DNA of 25,255 bases from a virus. Of this stretch, positions 5,661-20,396 are shown piece after piece. The notes under the pieces are model-generated. The model had not been told where the DNA came from. It searched no databases and saw nothing but the letters and a program-made list of their open reading frames with translations. Positions within the stretch are counted from its first letter, which is position 1. Each line of letters begins with the position of its first letter. The DNA is taken from the IMG/VR virus record IMGVR_UViG_3300009159_007268, positions 1 through 25,255 of that record. The stretch is one strand, 5' to 3'. Position numbers and translations under genes: made by a program.

Positions 5661-6623
5661 TTATGGGTTATAGTACACGATTTCTTTAGTAGCAGTATTA
5701 TAATAAAGCTGTCTCATATCACCAGTAACTTCAGAAACGCTACGAACTGGATTCACATAGAATGAATTTGCTTGTACAGTATTTAATGTTTCACCAAGTG
5801 AATTAATAACGATTGTGCGAGGATGCTGATCAGTTTCACCAGCTCTGTTACCGATAGCAACTGACAGAGTGCCCTGATTGGTGCCACCAGCAAGCCAGCC
5901 AAATGCGATACCATAATTGTCTTGATTAGCATAGCCAGCTTTTCTACCGATTGCGATCGCATGGTCGCCCTGAATGTCGTTACCAGCTTGTGAACCAATT
6001 GCAATGGCATAATTATCTTGTAAATTATAACCAGCATTTTCACCAATCGAAACGCTATAGCTGCCCTGATGATCGCTACCAGCACCAACACCAATAGCAA
6101 CTGCACGATTGCCCTGATATTCGTCAGCTGCGTAATGACCAATTGCTACTGACTGATTGCCTTGCGACTGATCGCCAGCGGATCTACCGATAGCAATAGA
6201 ATCCCAACCCTGCAAATAGTAACCAGCATCTCTACCGATTGCGATGGCGTGATACTTCTGCTGGTCATAACCAGCCCAAAAACCAATTGCGATAACTTCT
6301 TCGCCGTCACCATTTGGATCGCGCCCATATTGTCCAGCTTGCCAACCAATAGCAATACCGTAGTCATCTTGACTATCTTGCCCAGCCTGATAACCGATAG
6401 CTATAGCGCCATAATTTTGACTTGTCTGACCAGCACCTGTTCCGATAGCAATAGTATTGCCAAATGTACCCTGACTGATAGTCAAGCCACCAGCATTACC
6501 ATCGCCCACACGAAGAGTTAATTCTTCTGGATCATAAAAAAGTTCACCAACGTCGGCTTTATAGTCGCCAGCTGCTGTACCACCTAGTTTATCTACGAAT
6601 ACTTTATAAGTTACATTTGACAT
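5661..6623 (-). CDS. Adhesin-like virion protein with YadA-type AIAIG repeats
   Basis: A 320-residue fibre-like protein. Residues 1-52 form an N-terminal docking-type domain (YKVFVDKLGGTAAGDY, then GELFYDPEELTLRVGDG), as seen in phage tail proteins. Residues 56-269 are about 13 copies of a 16-residue repeat, [AS][IV]AIGxxAGxxxQxxx. This is the pattern of the left-handed beta-roll in YadA-type trimeric adhesin heads, so the mature protein is probably a trimer. The C-terminus (QLYYNTATKEIVYYNP) is a short terminal motif familiar in marine phage structural proteins. It has an AGGAGC ribosome site, and transcription probably comes from the late promoter at 7630-7637. Role: host-surface recognition, by inference. 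Confidence 0.8.
   Translation of the reverse strand: MSNVTYKVFVDKLGGTAAGDYKADVGELFYDPEELTLRVGDGNAGGLTISQGTFGNTIAIGTGAGQTSQNYGAIAIGYQAGQDSQDDYGIAIGWQAGQYGRDPNGDGEEVIAIGFWAGYDQQKYHAIAIGRDAGYYLQGWDSIAIGRSAGDQSQGNQSVAIGHYAADEYQGNRAVAIGVGAGSDHQGSYSVSIGENAGYNLQDNYAIAIGSQAGNDIQGDHAIAIGRKAGYANQDNYGIAFGWLAGGTNQGTLSVAIGNRAGETDQHPRTIVINSLGETLNTVQANSFYVNPVRSVSEVTGDMRQLYYNTATKEIVYYNP
5817..6458 (-). repeat. Tandem 48-bp coding repeat (16-aa AIAIG units)
   Basis: About 13 degenerate direct repeats inside the adhesin gene, mostly 48 bp each, encoding AIAIGxxAGxxxQxxx. The third copy is longer (IAIGWQAGQYGRDPNGDGEE) and the seventh has AA instead of AG. Conservation is mainly at protein level, so unit loss or gain by recombination is possible. 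Confidence 0.9.
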
Positions 6624-12848: not shown

Positions 12849-13286
12849 TTAACCTTTAGTAATTGAACGTAACTGCCAACCATGTTTTTCGTGAGCATCG
12901 ATACGGTCCTGTAGGAAGTTAGCAAGACCCATCTTTTTATTCTTTTCGGCAATAGCCTGAGTTTTAGTAAGCTGTTCGATAATAGTTGCATTATCATCAG
13001 TTAACTTCTTCATCATAGACATAGCAGCAGGAATATTAACTTCATCGCTGACTAATGATAGTTCCTTGTAACGTAGGAATGAAGCAGGTGCATATGCTCC
13101 TAGTGTACGAAGGTGTTCTGCAATAGGATCAACCGCACCAAATGCTTCTTCCCATAGACCCCCAAGAAAATCATGGTACTGTGGAAAGTTTGGACCTTCT
13201 ACATTCCAATGGAAACCATGAGCCTTTAGATAAAAGGCGAAGGTTGTCGCAAGCGATACCTTCATTTCTTGAATAAGATCATCCAT
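12849..13286 (-). CDS. dps: Dps-family ferritin-like DNA-protection protein
   Basis: A 145-residue four-helix ferritin-like protein. The Dps signature is clear: HGFHWNVEGPNFPQYHDFL followed by AVDPIAEHLRTLGAYAP. Ferroxidase ligands correspond to H26 (HWN), H38 (YHDF), D53 and E57; the position of E. coli D67 is G42, so one ligand is lost. Dps proteins form 12-mers at inter-subunit sites, oxidise Fe(II) with peroxide and protect or compact DNA. This one starts directly at helix A and lacks the Lys-rich N-terminal tail used by E. coli Dps for DNA binding. It begins 1 nt after the stop of the Lys-rich protein gene, so the two are coupled. A phage-carried Dps in a late virion cassette is unusual; it may guard packaged or injected DNA (inference). 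Confidence 0.88.
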   Translation of the reverse strand: MDDLIQEMKVSLATTFAFYLKAHGFHWNVEGPNFPQYHDFLGGLWEEAFGAVDPIAEHLRTLGAYAPASFLRYKELSLVSDEVNIPAAMSMMKKLTDDNATIIEQLTKTQAIAEKNKKMGLANFLQDRIDAHEKHGWQLRSITKG

Positions 13287-15947: not shown

Positions 15948-17122
15948 ATTTCTACGACGAGTTTCATCTTCGTCTGCATCTTCTTAATGGTTAATTTCTG
16001 CTGTTCTTTTTCTCTCTTTGCCTTATAATAATCCTGCTTCATATTTTCAATCTCTGCTTCTTTAGCAGGAGTAAAATGATCAGGAAATTTTGTTCTCATA
16101 TAATCAAGAGTTTTATCTTTCATCTTCTGGTCTTCAGCATGGTCATTATCTATTAACTGAGAACCTGGTTCGTAGATAGTTCTAACATATCTATCAGCAA
16201 CTCTGCTCTGTTGTTCTGGATTTAAATGTTTCTTCATACTATCAAGAACGCCATGATATGAACCAAAGGTTTTCATATCTTCAGGTTCTGGTGCCTTACC
16301 AAACATCTTACCATAAATTGATGGTAGGCTTGTATCGTACTGACTTTCTTTTGGAGTTAATTCTCTATAAACTGTATCGCCATTCTCTTGAGCGATTGGA
16401 GTATGAGATGGTCTCATGCCTCTATCGACAGAAAATGAATGATCGGCGATAAACTTTCTTGTATCACCCTTTTTATTTCTAACGACACCATTTGTGCCCT
16501 GCGCTGCAGTTACTGATCTAAGTAGCAGTTTATGGAATGCGCCCTTTATACCTGTCTTAACATCTCCCCAGTCAGAGCCATGGGCAAACTGATTCCATTC
16601 ACTTGGTCGACCGTTTTCATAAGTTGCAGGTTCCATATCTATCTGTTGAACTCTACCATCATCATGACGAAATAAACCTAAGTTCTGAGTTCCTGATTTT
16701 TTACCGCCGATAAAGGTATACTTGCCATATTTTTTACCAGGCTTTAGTTGATCAGCCAACGTACCTGTATGCTCTTCAGGAATTGCAATATCAACATCAC
16801 CAACCTTTGGCTTGTGTTGAGCAAATTCTTTATGAGATATTTTTGGGTCCATAAATGCGTTTGATGACCCCATGAAAGCGGATCCATCATTTAATGCTTC
16901 ATGGTTTGGACCAAATATATGATTACCTGTTTTCTGGGCGTGTTCATCACTCATTTGACTCAAAGCATCGTGAAGATCACCCTGTCTTTCTTTTCTTGAA
17001 ACAGCCTGTGGGTGATTAGGATCCATATGCATAGGATCTGCCCCGATCATTTGACCATGAGCATCAGGTAGCTGTAAATTTCCACCTTCGGCTAAGTAAA
17101 AGTTTTTGAAATTTATTATCAT
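15944..17122 (-). CDS. Pol-beta-like nucleotidyltransferase with capsid-targeting-like N-terminus
   Basis: A 392-residue protein. MGSSNAF (residues 84-90) followed by VGDVDIAIPEE (107-117) is the helix-turn G-S and strand D-x-D pair of the DNA polymerase beta superfamily of nucleotidyltransferases. D109 and D111 would bind metal, and D162 in QQIDMEP is a good third acidic residue. Downstream, EWNQFAHGSDWGD and KGAFHKLLLRS form a conserved-looking helical lid. Such enzymes add nucleotides to RNA, DNA, proteins or small molecules; the substrate is not visible. The start MIINFKNFYLAE|G resembles the T4 capsid-targeting peptide with its cleavage after Glu. The C-terminus is a Lys/Gln-rich helix. 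ATGA overlaps link it to both neighbours. Confidence 0.75.
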   Translation of the reverse strand: MIINFKNFYLAEGGNLQLPDAHGQMIGADPMHMDPNHPQAVSRKERQGDLHDALSQMSDEHAQKTGNHIFGPNHEALNDGSAFMGSSNAFMDPKISHKEFAQHKPKVGDVDIAIPEEHTGTLADQLKPGKKYGKYTFIGGKKSGTQNLGLFRHDDGRVQQIDMEPATYENGRPSEWNQFAHGSDWGDVKTGIKGAFHKLLLRSVTAAQGTNGVVRNKKGDTRKFIADHSFSVDRGMRPSHTPIAQENGDTVYRELTPKESQYDTSLPSIYGKMFGKAPEPEDMKTFGSYHGVLDSMKKHLNPEQQSRVADRYVRTIYEPGSQLIDNDHAEDQKMKDKTLDYMRTKFPDHFTPAKEAEIENMKQDYYKAKREKEQQKLTIKKMQTKMKLVVEI

Positions 17123-18180
17123 GGAGTTCTTCTCAACTTTGCTGTAACGCCTTTGCTATCACCTTTTTGAAGTTTTACAAAAGCACCCTCTGGTTCTGAT
17201 TCAACACCGTCAACTGAATGAGAAAACTCACTATTCTTATGCAAAGGATTCATTAGAGCATTCTTTGCATTTTTAAGATGTGTTTGAAACTCTAAAGCTT
17301 TCTCAAAATGGTTTCTATTTCTCAATACTGTTTCTGCCATCGACGAGTGTTCTTTGTTCTTTTTCAACGAGTCAAGATAACTATCAACTGATGGCTCTAG
17401 ACCTTTAGAACTCATAGATTCTATATGAGCTGCAAATTTTGATCCATGTTTGCCCATCTCATCAAAAGCTTCTGGCTTAATTTTACTATAAGCCATTTCA
17501 GCTTCTCTTTTATGGTTTAGGAATTCTCTTTGATCTTCTGGCGAATAGTTTTTAGGATTGGCTTTAATTTCAGGATCTATCATATGCACGTCAGGGTGCT
17601 TATTGAACTTACTTTTTGTTTTATCGTCTAATGGCTCAAACCCTTTTCCATTGTGCATAGACTCTAAGGAGATAGCCATCTGGGCGGCTTTTAACGATTT
17701 GCCAGTTCCGCTATTCATAGGAACAGAATAGGTTCTATTGCCAGCTTCTATATTTTGCTTACCCTTGTAACCTTTAATTTGATCTTTTGTAAACATCTTA
17801 CCATCATACATCCCAGGAGTTTCAGGAGTTATCTTATGAAGATGATCAAAAGCATGTTTCAATTTATTGATTGTGTCACCATAGCCTTTATGGTTCTTTT
17901 CGATATCATCATGAGAATAATTAGGAACATTTGGGTCTGAACCAACGAAGAAGTTACCCTTTTTATCCCTACCAAAAGAAACTGGTTCGCCATTAAATTT
18001 CATCATAGTTTTAACATTAGAAGATTTACCAAGAAAATGTCTATTCAAAGCATCTAATACGTTAGCCGAATTTAAAGCGCCATTATGGCCATCATGTAAA
18101 TGCATATGGTCAATGTCCTTAATCTTATTATCAGTTTGCGGTGTTTGTTCTTCTTTTAAGAAACTTTTAAAATTTATCAC
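17119..18180 (-). CDS. Ligase-like nucleotidyltransferase (DUF6267-like), degenerate motif I
   Basis: A 353-residue protein resembling a phage family (DUF6267, from memory) with RNA/DNA ligase-like strands. TMMKFNGEPVSFGRDKKGNF (residues 58-77) matches motif I K-x-D-G, but with Asn for Asp (K61, N63). MYDGKMFTKDQI lies where motif III would be. EPEGAFVKLQKG with TAKLRR near the C-terminus resembles motifs IV (EG-x-V) and V (K-L-x-x-R). The family fold would bind ATP and, if active, form a lysyl-AMP; the Asn change makes activity uncertain. It starts at GTG (18180) with GGAG upstream and lies 3 nt after the previous stop. The start MINFKSFLKE|E matches the capsid-targeting-like peptide of its neighbours. 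Confidence 0.65.
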   Translation of the reverse strand: MINFKSFLKEEQTPQTDNKIKDIDHMHLHDGHNGALNSANVLDALNRHFLGKSSNVKTMMKFNGEPVSFGRDKKGNFFVGSDPNVPNYSHDDIEKNHKGYGDTINKLKHAFDHLHKITPETPGMYDGKMFTKDQIKGYKGKQNIEAGNRTYSVPMNSGTGKSLKAAQMAISLESMHNGKGFEPLDDKTKSKFNKHPDVHMIDPEIKANPKNYSPEDQREFLNHKREAEMAYSKIKPEAFDEMGKHGSKFAAHIESMSSKGLEPSVDSYLDSLKKNKEHSSMAETVLRNRNHFEKALEFQTHLKNAKNALMNPLHKNSEFSHSVDGVESEPEGAFVKLQKGDSKGVTAKLRRTP

Positions 18181-18183
18181 AAT

Positions 18184-19326
18184 TTAACTCCAGGCTGGCG
18201 TATGTTGTCTTTGTTCGGCGGAAGGAGCTCTATTACCATTCGCTGGTGTAGGCTGTGGGGCTTCCGCTGCTTTTTTAATTCTTGCTTCTCTTTCTTCATC
18301 GGCGAGTTTTGCGTTTGGTCTAACTTCAGTTGGACCTATAAGAACTCTTCCACCTAAACCATGGTTATTTCTATCTTTAGCTGTTCTAAATATAACAGAA
18401 GTATCGGGGTGTACATCTGAATCGCCGCCATTTCTATTAATATACGATTTAGTAGAATTTAAATTTAATTCGCCGTTTTCGCCAGGAATCAATGAAATAT
18501 CACCACCAATTATTCTATGAACATTTGAAAGACCGTATTCACCGCCATGCTTTACCCCATACATTGATCTATGTATTAAATCTTTATCGTGTTCATCATT
18601 AGTATCTAAAGTATGCCTTATTGCCCCAGTAAATCCTGGATCAGCAGCTCTTTCTTTCCCTAATCTATCTGTTATGCTAGAAATAGCTCTTTTGACTGCA
18701 GGGTGGTTTGCAATATGTGTAGAACCTCCCCACTGTTGGTGTCTAGTTCCTTTTAAAGAAATAAAATGCGTTGGCTTTCCGTTTTCATCATGAAAATAAG
18801 CATCAGCTTTTGGTGCGCCCCTTCCATCATATCCTAATTCTTTCCACTGATCTGGCGTTACTTTTTTTATACCAGCAGCTTCTATATGATTACCATCACC
18901 GAAACGAACTCTAACAGAACCTTTACCTGTAGTTTTTTTATGTAAATCTATACCATTTTGCATCTGTGATATTTGATCGTTTTCAACTTGTTCTGGGTTT
19001 CTTGCATTTCCAATTTTAGCCAACTTTGAAGATCTTACTACTGTTGTATTTCCATTTTCATCACCAACAGTAACATGATGTACGCCATTTTTAACTTCAT
19101 GATGAACTAATTCAACTCTACTTCCTGCCGAGAATCTAACACCAGTTTTCGGATCAACATGATCAGTTGCTAATTGGTGAGTACCTGGCGCATGTTTTGA
19201 TGTTGAATCACCTGGTAAATAATCTTTAATGTATTGTTCATAGTGTCTTTGTGCATTAATGCCAGACGCAGACATAGCTTTTCTTATTTCAGCTTTTTCC
19301 GTTAAATATTCTCCAAATTTAAACAT
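18184..19326 (-). CDS. Putative PD-(D/E)xK-like nuclease with capsid-targeting-like N-terminus
   Basis: A 380-residue protein. The start MFKFGEYLTE|K is capsid-targeting-like. Residues about 66-105 (SAGSRVELVHHEVKNGVHHV onward) look like a small SH3/KOW-type beta barrel. Then APKADAYFHDENGKPTHFIS followed by LKG gives D175 and S190-L-K192, the D-x(n)-[EQS]-x-K pattern of PD-(D/E)xK enzymes in its Ser variant. An upstream acidic residue (E118) fits the fold. The C-terminal region is Gly/Asn-rich, with RRE-like basic ends. If active it would cleave DNA or RNA, perhaps host DNA or competing DNA on entry (inference). The start overlaps the HAD gene stop by 1 nt (TAATG). The nuclease call rests on one motif. 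Confidence 0.55.
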   Translation of the reverse strand: MFKFGEYLTEKAEIRKAMSASGINAQRHYEQYIKDYLPGDSTSKHAPGTHQLATDHVDPKTGVRFSAGSRVELVHHEVKNGVHHVTVGDENGNTTVVRSSKLAKIGNARNPEQVENDQISQMQNGIDLHKKTTGKGSVRVRFGDGNHIEAAGIKKVTPDQWKELGYDGRGAPKADAYFHDENGKPTHFISLKGTRHQQWGGSTHIANHPAVKRAISSITDRLGKERAADPGFTGAIRHTLDTNDEHDKDLIHRSMYGVKHGGEYGLSNVHRIIGGDISLIPGENGELNLNSTKSYINRNGGDSDVHPDTSVIFRTAKDRNNHGLGGRVLIGPTEVRPNAKLADEEREARIKKAAEAPQPTPANGNRAPSAEQRQHTPAWS

Positions 19327-19994
19327 TATTTCTTAGCCTTTTCTTTTTCTTTATCAGAAGGTTTCTCTGTTAGCGATGTGGTCGTTACCTTAACGTTACC
19401 AGTTTTCGCATCATGATCGACATGATGTGCATGAAACTCTGTTTCTGGATATTCCTTCTTTAGTTTTAAGAAACCGTGTAAATTATCCATTGAGTCATCA
19501 TACAGATGAACCTTCTTGTGTCCAGCCTTATTTAATATGTTTCTCATGACCATTGCCTTAGTATCGGCTGGTTTGCCTTCTAAGTTGCCTGCTCTATAAA
19601 CGTGAGTCTTATCAATATCGATACCATACTTTGCCATGTGATGGGCAAACTTCTTTTGATCATCAAGGTCAGATCTAGCAGTAAGGATTGCTGTCTTGCC
19701 ACCATTCTTTTGGATTGCCTTTAGTTTAGCAATCATGCGACGAATAGGCTTGGCTGACTGTGTAAATATATCAGAGCTTCTGAACTCACCAAAATCATAT
19801 CTATGACCAGGAGGAAGCTTATGGGTATTAAATTCTTGATTGGTTAGAGTTTGAACTCTGGCGCCAGATGGATCTGTAACATGAACTCTAAGCTTACTGT
19901 GATCATGGGCGAATAGTGTCTCGTCCATATCGAAGGCATGAAGACCCTCTGGCTTGGTTCTATCTTCAACGATGAATTGGCTGAATTTGATCAT
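19326..19994 (-). CDS. HAD-superfamily phosphatase with capsid-targeting-like N-terminus
   Basis: A 222-residue protein. HAD motif I is HAFDMDETLF (nucleophile D22, acid D24), motif II is AILTARSD (T105), K146 fits motif III, and the acidic pair is in VHLYDDSMDN (D166-D167). The size and motif layout resemble the 3'-phosphatase half of T4 polynucleotide kinase and other small HAD phosphatases, so a nucleic-acid or nucleotide 3'-phosphate is a reasonable substrate. The start MIKFSQFIVE|D closely matches the T4 internal-protein capsid-targeting sequence, with E at position 10. The C-terminus is Lys/Glu-rich. It is the first gene after a TATAAATA promoter (20019-20026), with ribosome site TAGGGATAGTT. 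Confidence 0.8.
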   Translation of the reverse strand: MIKFSQFIVEDRTKPEGLHAFDMDETLFAHDHSKLRVHVTDPSGARVQTLTNQEFNTHKLPPGHRYDFGEFRSSDIFTQSAKPIRRMIAKLKAIQKNGGKTAILTARSDLDDQKKFAHHMAKYGIDIDKTHVYRAGNLEGKPADTKAMVMRNILNKAGHKKVHLYDDSMDNLHGFLKLKKEYPETEFHAHHVDHDAKTGNVKVTTTSLTEKPSDKEKEKAKK

Positions 19995-20040: not shown

Positions 20041-20071
20041 AAAAAAGGCGAGCCTTTTACAGCTCGCCTTT
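20041..20071 (-). terminator. Rho-independent terminator
   Basis: A perfect 10-bp stem (AAAGGCGAGC pairing with GCTCGCCTTT, 20044-20053 with 20062-20071) has an 8-nt loop. On the minus strand it ends in a TTTTTT tract before C at 20040. It ends transcription from the replication block and from the box at 20186-20193, just before the next late promoter. Confidence 0.85.
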
Positions 20072-20180
20072 ACGTAAACATGGTTGAGCGGAACCCCACC
20101 GTTTGCTCTCAACTATTCCTAGTCTCTCCTCGACTCGTGCCTCTGCAGTAGCTATAGCTACGCATACATGTTCATTACGT
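20041..20180 (-). ncRNA. Candidate late-transcribed structured small RNA
   Basis: This roughly 140-nt region has no gene after the stop at 20175. The predicted RNA begins near 20180, right after a late-promoter box, and ends at the terminator. Its 5' end (TACGTA, then a 3-nt bulge, then AACATG; 20181-20167) pairs with CATGTTTACGTA (20082-20071) to give a 12-bp closing stem. Inside are three hairpins: GTAGC/GCTAC with loop TATA (20161-20148), AGTC/GACT with a 7-nt loop (20135-20121), and GTTGAG/CTCAAC (20113-20083), with a possible CGG/CCG inner stem. Together with the closing stem this makes a four-way junction, followed by the terminator. No known RNA family is recognised; the fold is by eye. 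Confidence 0.55.
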
Positions 20181-20396
20181 ACTTTTATTTATATAAGACT
20201 TCATACTTTTTAAAAAGAAAGTTGGAGAAAAACCATCAAATCCTCCACCTAAATTCAAATGACGCATAAATGCACGTGCCTCAAGGAACTTATCACCAGG
20301 AAATGACTTGATTACCTGATTGGTTGTCTCCTCAAGAATATCATACATTGACTTATCCTTGCCTTCAACCAGATTATAATTCATACGACGCTTCAT
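20175..20396 (-). CDS. Hypothetical protein, 73 aa
   Basis: A small basic protein (MKRRMNYNLVEGKDKSMYDI onward) with a central helix (NQVIKSFPGDKFLEARAFMR) and an aromatic Gly-rich turn (GGGFDGFSPTFF). I do not recognise it. The start overlaps the phosphoesterase stop by ATGA, and GGAG lies about 11 nt upstream. It is the last gene of the replication block, and its 3' end contains a late-promoter box. Confidence 0.7.
   Translation of the reverse strand: MKRRMNYNLVEGKDKSMYDILEETTNQVIKSFPGDKFLEARAFMRHLNLGGGFDGFSPTFFLKSMKSYINKST
20186..20193 (-). promoter_or_regulatory. T4-type late promoter box TATAAATA ahead of the small RNA
   Basis: An exact TATAAATA is read on the minus strand, inside the 3' end of the 73-aa gene. 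Initiation 6-8 nt downstream would fall at about 20179, at the base of the predicted closing stem of the small RNA. No coding gene starts between this box and the terminator at 20041-20071. Confidence 0.65.

Follow-up and report, generated by a model that had tools for sequence, protein, structure and literature searches.

Stable RNAs C and D of phage T4, which come from its tRNA cluster, are structured noncoding RNAs of unclear function. Noncoding RNAs that the literature on T4-like phages mentions include CFrI, PhotoRC-II, wcaG, manA and the glutamine riboswitch (PMC9964418, PMC2864571). These RNAs of T4-like cyanophages are comparable to the RNA considered here, in that they are likewise structured RNAs of T4-like aquatic phages; manA and wcaG, however, are proposed leaders of metabolic genes, whereas our RNA is a separate unit placed between two late-promoter boxes. 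GOLLD and ROOL, large ornate RNAs of phages and other elements (cited in PMC12286853), are also structured and noncoding and unclear in function, but they exceed our RNA several-fold in size and assemble into multimers made of RNA only, and they have no sequence or model match to our family. In a study of pelagimyophages, late promoters were not predictable and no riboswitches were found (PMC7029224).

The RNA was noticed in a stretch of viral DNA of 25,255 nucleotides (IMG/VR record IMGVR_UViG_3300009159_007268, positions 1 to 25,255), hereafter the window. We conclude, with a probability of about 0.8, that it represents a family of structured noncoding RNAs encoded as separate units by uncultured T4-like phages of aquatic habitats, likely a late RNA that acts in trans. 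The broad kind, a phage-encoded structured RNA, is already known, and the claim of novelty concerns the family only: as far as Rfam 15, the records of phage isolates and open-access papers show, neither the RNA family nor its core and strict late wiring has a known counterpart.

Layout of the unit in the window

The whole unit is on the minus strand, where the end of a 73-aa ORF with a box in it, a four-way junction, an intrinsic terminator, a second box and an ORF for a HAD-type protein follow one another. The 73-aa ORF (20396-20175) belongs to a family that we call C1, and is a constant neighbour placed outside the RNA; its last codons contain the late-promoter box TATAAATA (20193-20186), recognized by its sequence, and its stop codon falls in the closing stem, on the 5' side. 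The position of the box, the fold and a covariance-model match (20070-20181, 89.9 bits) together predict an RNA of about 140 nt (20041..20181), which would begin at about 20179-20181, at the base of the closing stem, and end within the T run.

The minimum free energy (MFE) fold of the isolated RNA (-47.6 kcal/mol, z = -3.1, with 0 of 200 shuffles as good) has a closing stem of 12 bp, interrupted by a 3-nt bulge, that encloses three hairpins and is directly followed by a 10-pair terminator stem. The closing stem, P1, joins a 5' arm at 20167..20181, made of 7 + 5 pairs around the bulge at 20172-20174, to a 3' arm at 20071..20082. P1 is seen in both the MFE fold and covariation, and so is P2 (20144..20164), a hairpin of about 5 bp with a variable loop. 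The conserved junction strand GAGGCA (20138..20143) is followed by P3 (20121..20135), a short hairpin of the MFE fold and the weakest of the helices, and the invariant junction strand GGAA (20116..20119) is followed by the hairpin formed by P4 and P4a (20083..20113), which is drawn from covariation. P4 has 6 bp and a bulge on its 5' side; P4a is a 3-bp helix, CGG/CCG (20101-20099 with 20091-20089), capped by the invariant loop UGGGGUU (20098-20092). In the MFE fold P4a is placed differently, and covariation prefers CGG/CCG with this loop. The terminator (20041..20070) has arms at 20070-20061 and 20054-20045, paired by nine Watson-Crick pairs and one U-G, and a T run at 20046-20041, two of whose six T also belong to the 3' arm. 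The second TATAAATA box (20026-20019) appears, from its sequence and from the relatives, to serve the downstream operon.

An earlier note, made from this DNA alone, had placed box, closing stem, three hairpins, terminator and second box where we find them. Its terminator retains the ten pairs and six T, and is less than perfect in its U-G pair and in the two T shared with the stem. The note had further held that the coincidence of box, stem and terminator is unlikely to be random. The window by itself does not demonstrate this, as it contains 3 exact matches to TATAAATA against 2.25 expected, which is no enrichment, and 8 terminator-like sites against 6.3 expected from shuffles, which are not rare. 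With box and terminator both at chance level, one genome cannot prove the unit and relatives are needed; there the coincidence is repeated in 101 of 101 cases.

Two other interpretations of the segment were tried and rejected. A small encoded peptide would begin with the AUG of P1, which in the window reaches a stop at the fourth codon, and the members differ in length. An alternative pairing of GGAA with UUCC is complementary, but shows no covariation and is incompatible with the supported P4a.

Relatives of the RNA and their conserved fold

The relatives were found on metagenomic IMG/VR contigs, the first loci being those that encode the upstream ORF or the HAD protein found downstream; about 30 distinct loci in this first sample share the arrangement of the window. 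A covariance model, R1, was built from 19 loci and gave 33 matches in 69 sources. A DNA pattern scan raised the matches to at least 98, and further stretches added another 41, where a 42nd row (L227) was left out of membership; E-values of the model are rough. A third sample of 80 loci was picked by the upstream protein alone, and 59 of the 80 have the RNA directly behind the upstream ORF, while a few others end at the contig edge. Altogether, IMG/VR contigs contain at least 124 distinct homologous RNAs, of which 103 form our main set. All 14 large records positive for the RNA have a single copy each.

Conservation of the core in the large set is partly forced by the scan pattern. In 41 distinct loci picked by protein only, without regard to RNA sequence, G, GGCA, GGAA and UGGGGUU are found at 95-100%, the G and GGCA of the first junction strand standing at 98-100% and GGAA at 100%. 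The consensus junction strands read G(A)GGCA and GGAA(U)A. Another loop type, UGGUGGUU, is seen in a side branch (loci L018, L020, L026 and L067 among others). In P2 and P3 the terminal loops are free to vary, and the invariant bases are confined to the junction purines and one G-rich loop.

The signals on both sides of the RNA are equally regular. TAAATA is located 1-9 nt ahead of P1 in each of the 101 main-set units whose upstream sequence is long enough, compared with 1.8% of 18,183 control stretches, and 64 of these 101 have the exact TATAAATA; in the most diverged members the box is up to about 45 nt upstream. An intrinsic terminator is present in 99 of 99 testable main-set units, and 94 of 98 have another TAAATA no more than 150 nt downstream. 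A TATAAATA-type box just ahead of the transcript start is what a T4-type late unit should have. The window is too short to show either gp55 or gp33, and homologues of both, as well as of gp23 and gp21, are encoded by a 164-kb carrier contig. In that contig most forward TATAAATA boxes are no more than 120 nt away from the start of an ORF, and one is just ahead of gp23, which supports reading the box as a late promoter.

The earlier note had staked its claim on compensatory stem changes in relatives, and double changes are indeed seen in 28 of the 31 modelled pairs among 99 diverse members. The covariation score of these members is 0.667, against 0.220 when shuffled and at most 0.101 with slid partners; the first 27 members give the same picture (0.528 against 0.219). 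All five modelled pairs of P2 and all three of P4a have double changes, as do four of the six pairs in P4, and paired cells make up 100% in P4 and 99.7% in P4a. In P3 the inner three pairs covary and the outer two do not; thus, of the three hairpins in the earlier note, all are present, with the outer pairs of P3 unsupported by relatives and the inner part of the third better drawn as CGG/CCG. In an unguided ranking by mutual information, the first 19 places are all taken by helix pairs, from P1, P2, P3, P4 and P4a. Fitting the alignment to the model works in the model's favour, but many of these pairs are already apparent in the first MAFFT alignments. G-U pairs are tolerated in P4 and unpaired cells are not seen there at all, which indicates that selection acts on the minus-strand RNA rather than on a DNA cruciform. 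With the terminator excluded, the fold z averages -1.5 and is below zero in 95% of members. More than 100 versions keep the four-way fold together with the invariant bases, so that the molecule almost certainly works as RNA, and the stand-alone late small-RNA unit of the earlier note has gained comparative support from covariation, box and terminator.

Searches for known families gave no match. Rfam 15 at curated gathering thresholds recognized nothing in the window and 13 further member loci, and permissive Rfam scans of three members yielded chance-level matches or none. Among 50,697 phage records, blastn with the locus or with concatenated RNAs as query retrieved nothing relevant. R1 searches, which by the same method give matches on positive records, were negative in eight related isolates (Melnitz-3, DLP_6, DSL-LC03, Mosig, phiM12, phiN3, S-SCSM2R and Bellamy). 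A weak match to model R2 in phiN3 (18.8 bits, E 0.02) was rejected: it is without GGCA and the P4a loop, and runs against the gene strand between tail genes. Similarly, a scan of genome contigs with the core pattern gave 9 matches, none of them confirmed by the model, the best being L227 (18.8 bits, E 0.025). We found no description of the RNA family in the main texts of open-access papers.

Genomic neighbourhood and empty sites

Upstream of the RNA the carriers share a constant gene order, which runs from UvsX, often by way of a small ORF, to gp41 helicase, the C1 ORF of about 70 aa and the RNA. In nearly all carriers a member of the C1 family (signature LNxGGGFDGWTPxF) stands ahead of the RNA, and the family occurs also without it. 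It has no confident Pfam match, its predicted model retrieved no meaningful fold match, and a relative of the ORF found no match in phage isolates. Downstream, the genes differ among carriers and include those for HAD phosphatase, DUF6267-type proteins and others.

In several relatives the same upstream ORF is found with no RNA (L028, L072, L297 and L300-L305), which provides a natural deletion-like comparison. At L028 and L072 a terminator and a late box come directly after the C1 ORF, and at L297 and L300 a late box and the next gene do. The RNA is therefore not essential to the lineage, and appears as an optional module between replication genes and a late operon.

In many carriers the next gene after the RNA encodes a HAD-type protein, in the window a 222-aa ORF (19326-19994, minus strand). 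This protein weakly resembles the phage polynucleotide kinase family phrog_415 (E 2e-7), and tblastn did not detect it in phage isolates. The DUF6267 protein (17119-18180, minus strand; Pfam E 4e-22) belongs to a family whose alignment contains the ligase-like motifs KYDGAP, GVYQGD and EGAV, motif I of the window copy being KFNGEP; its predicted model has DNA and RNA ligases as best Foldseek matches, at a weak E of about 0.01. N-termini of the FxxFLxE type (e.g., MIKFSQFIVED, MFKFGEYLTEK and MINFKSFLKEE) begin 67 of 190 downstream ORFs and 0 of 138 upstream ORFs, and in the window three minus-strand ORFs start in this way (19326-19994, 18184-19326 and 17119-18180). The motif resembles the capsid-targeting sequences of T4 (PMC3012670), and on this analysis the proteins that have it may be packaged in the head and injected. 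A carrier also encodes a homologue of the gp21 protease, noted here beside the head-packaging reading. The RNA adjoins, in many carriers, genes for phosphatase and ligase-like proteins that are seemingly packaged in the head.

Several other genes of the window were annotated by eye, all on the minus strand. A 320-aa protein (5661-6623) is made of IAIGxxAG repeats like the head repeats of trimeric adhesins, and is possibly a fibre protein. A 145-aa protein (12849-13286; FHWNVEGPNFPQYHDF) within the late region looks Dps- or ferritin-like, and has relatives in other carriers (cluster C22). At the window edge, a putative radical-SAM protein (50-1779; CNLKCKTCMYW) adjoins a glycosyltransferase-like protein. 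The 164-kb carrier contig (L322-L330) has 28 tRNA genes and a permuted tmRNA of alphaproteobacterial type (RF01849, L324:18249-18647), which may hint at an alphaproteobacterial host.

Possible modes of action

The conserved core without a variable seed, and the differing downstream genes with a promoter of their own, make action in trans the most likely on the comparative sequence evidence. In the mechanism that we propose, late machinery of the gp55/gp33 type would start at the base of P1, make about 140 nt and stop at the terminator. The RNA would then fold into a four-way junction presenting G(A)GGCA, GGAA and UGGGGUU, and act in trans as a folded object, independently of the next operon, by binding a protein or ribonucleoprotein of the host or the phage late in infection, and so recruiting or titrating it. 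An invariant core speaks for a protein or ribonucleoprotein that recognizes it and against a base-pairing seed that varies. A protein partner is our guess, held at somewhat less than even odds; a conserved junction core would also be expected of a ligand-binding aptamer.

Among the alternatives, an antisense small RNA that regulates mRNAs by base pairing survives best, and is nevertheless unlikely. Its size, its own promoter and a terminator with a U tail are those of many bacterial small RNAs, and accessible invariant elements are present; but the loops of P2 and P3 vary, and the invariant bases, being purine-rich, would not pair with purine-rich ribosome-binding sites.

The direct junction of a conserved core with a terminator is also the usual layout of a cis-acting riboswitch or attenuator, in which a junction aptamer would govern read-through into the downstream late operon. 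We regard this as quite unlikely, since such an element belongs in the leader of the gene that it controls with no promoter in between, whereas here the next gene has its own start, the second late box coming after the terminator in nearly all units. Moreover, the downstream genes are unrelated among carriers while the upstream side is constant, and no antiterminator pairing with P1 was spotted by eye in the members inspected. The regulatory role that the earlier note had considered is thus disfavoured in its cis form, by the second promoter and by the unrelated downstream genes.

Resemblance to tRNA is a matter of topology. Like tRNA, the RNA is a cloverleaf, in which a closing stem is followed by about 2 nt and three hairpins, the last abutting the closing stem; unlike tRNA, it is closed by about 12 bp, its second and third loops vary, it lacks a CCA end and it has its own terminator. 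ARAGORN detected no tRNA or tmRNA gene in the window, and of the tRNA-like decoy once suggested for this RNA the cloverleaf shape is what is left. In the T-box antiterminator, an unpaired UGG-N element pairs with the NCCA end of tRNA. UGGGGUU likewise offers a UGG-N that could pair with NCCA, a resemblance only, and in contrast to the T-box the UGG is in a hairpin loop, stem I and the specifier loop are absent, and Rfam gives no match. It is a long shot that UGGGGUU (UGG-U-GGUU in the side branch) recognizes tRNA 3' ends as the complement of NCCA, or joins RNAs via G-quartets; if so, the RNA would be a tRNA sensor or decoy that acts in trans, or would form a multimeric RNA particle. A specific link to tRNA-His was rejected: UGGGGU is complementary to an end in ACCCCA, whereas in a carrier phage ACCA is what follows the tRNA-His gene.

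A virion or packaging RNA, which would be carried inside the head or would act on the motor that packages the DNA, might be suggested by the adjoining operon, rich as it is in N-termini like T4 capsid-targeting sequences. The same kind of operon, however, exists without the RNA, and T4-type packaging is not known to require one, which makes this role very improbable. For the pRNA of phi29-type phages, which binds the portal and on which packaging depends, the window gives no Rfam match. Finally, a chance fold between operon end and terminator, or a DNA element such as a cruciform, might account for the chance-level box and terminator in the window and for the C1 ORFs followed directly by a terminator at two empty sites, but is largely refuted by covariation with strand-specific G-U pairs, by the fixed distance of the box throughout the testable main set and by fold energies below the shuffle mean, and we give it hardly any weight.

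The preferred reading, a folded late RNA acting in trans, has two consequences. The covariance model can be applied at once to metatranscriptomes and new isolates; and such strict retention of the RNA points to a conserved target in the host or in the virion.
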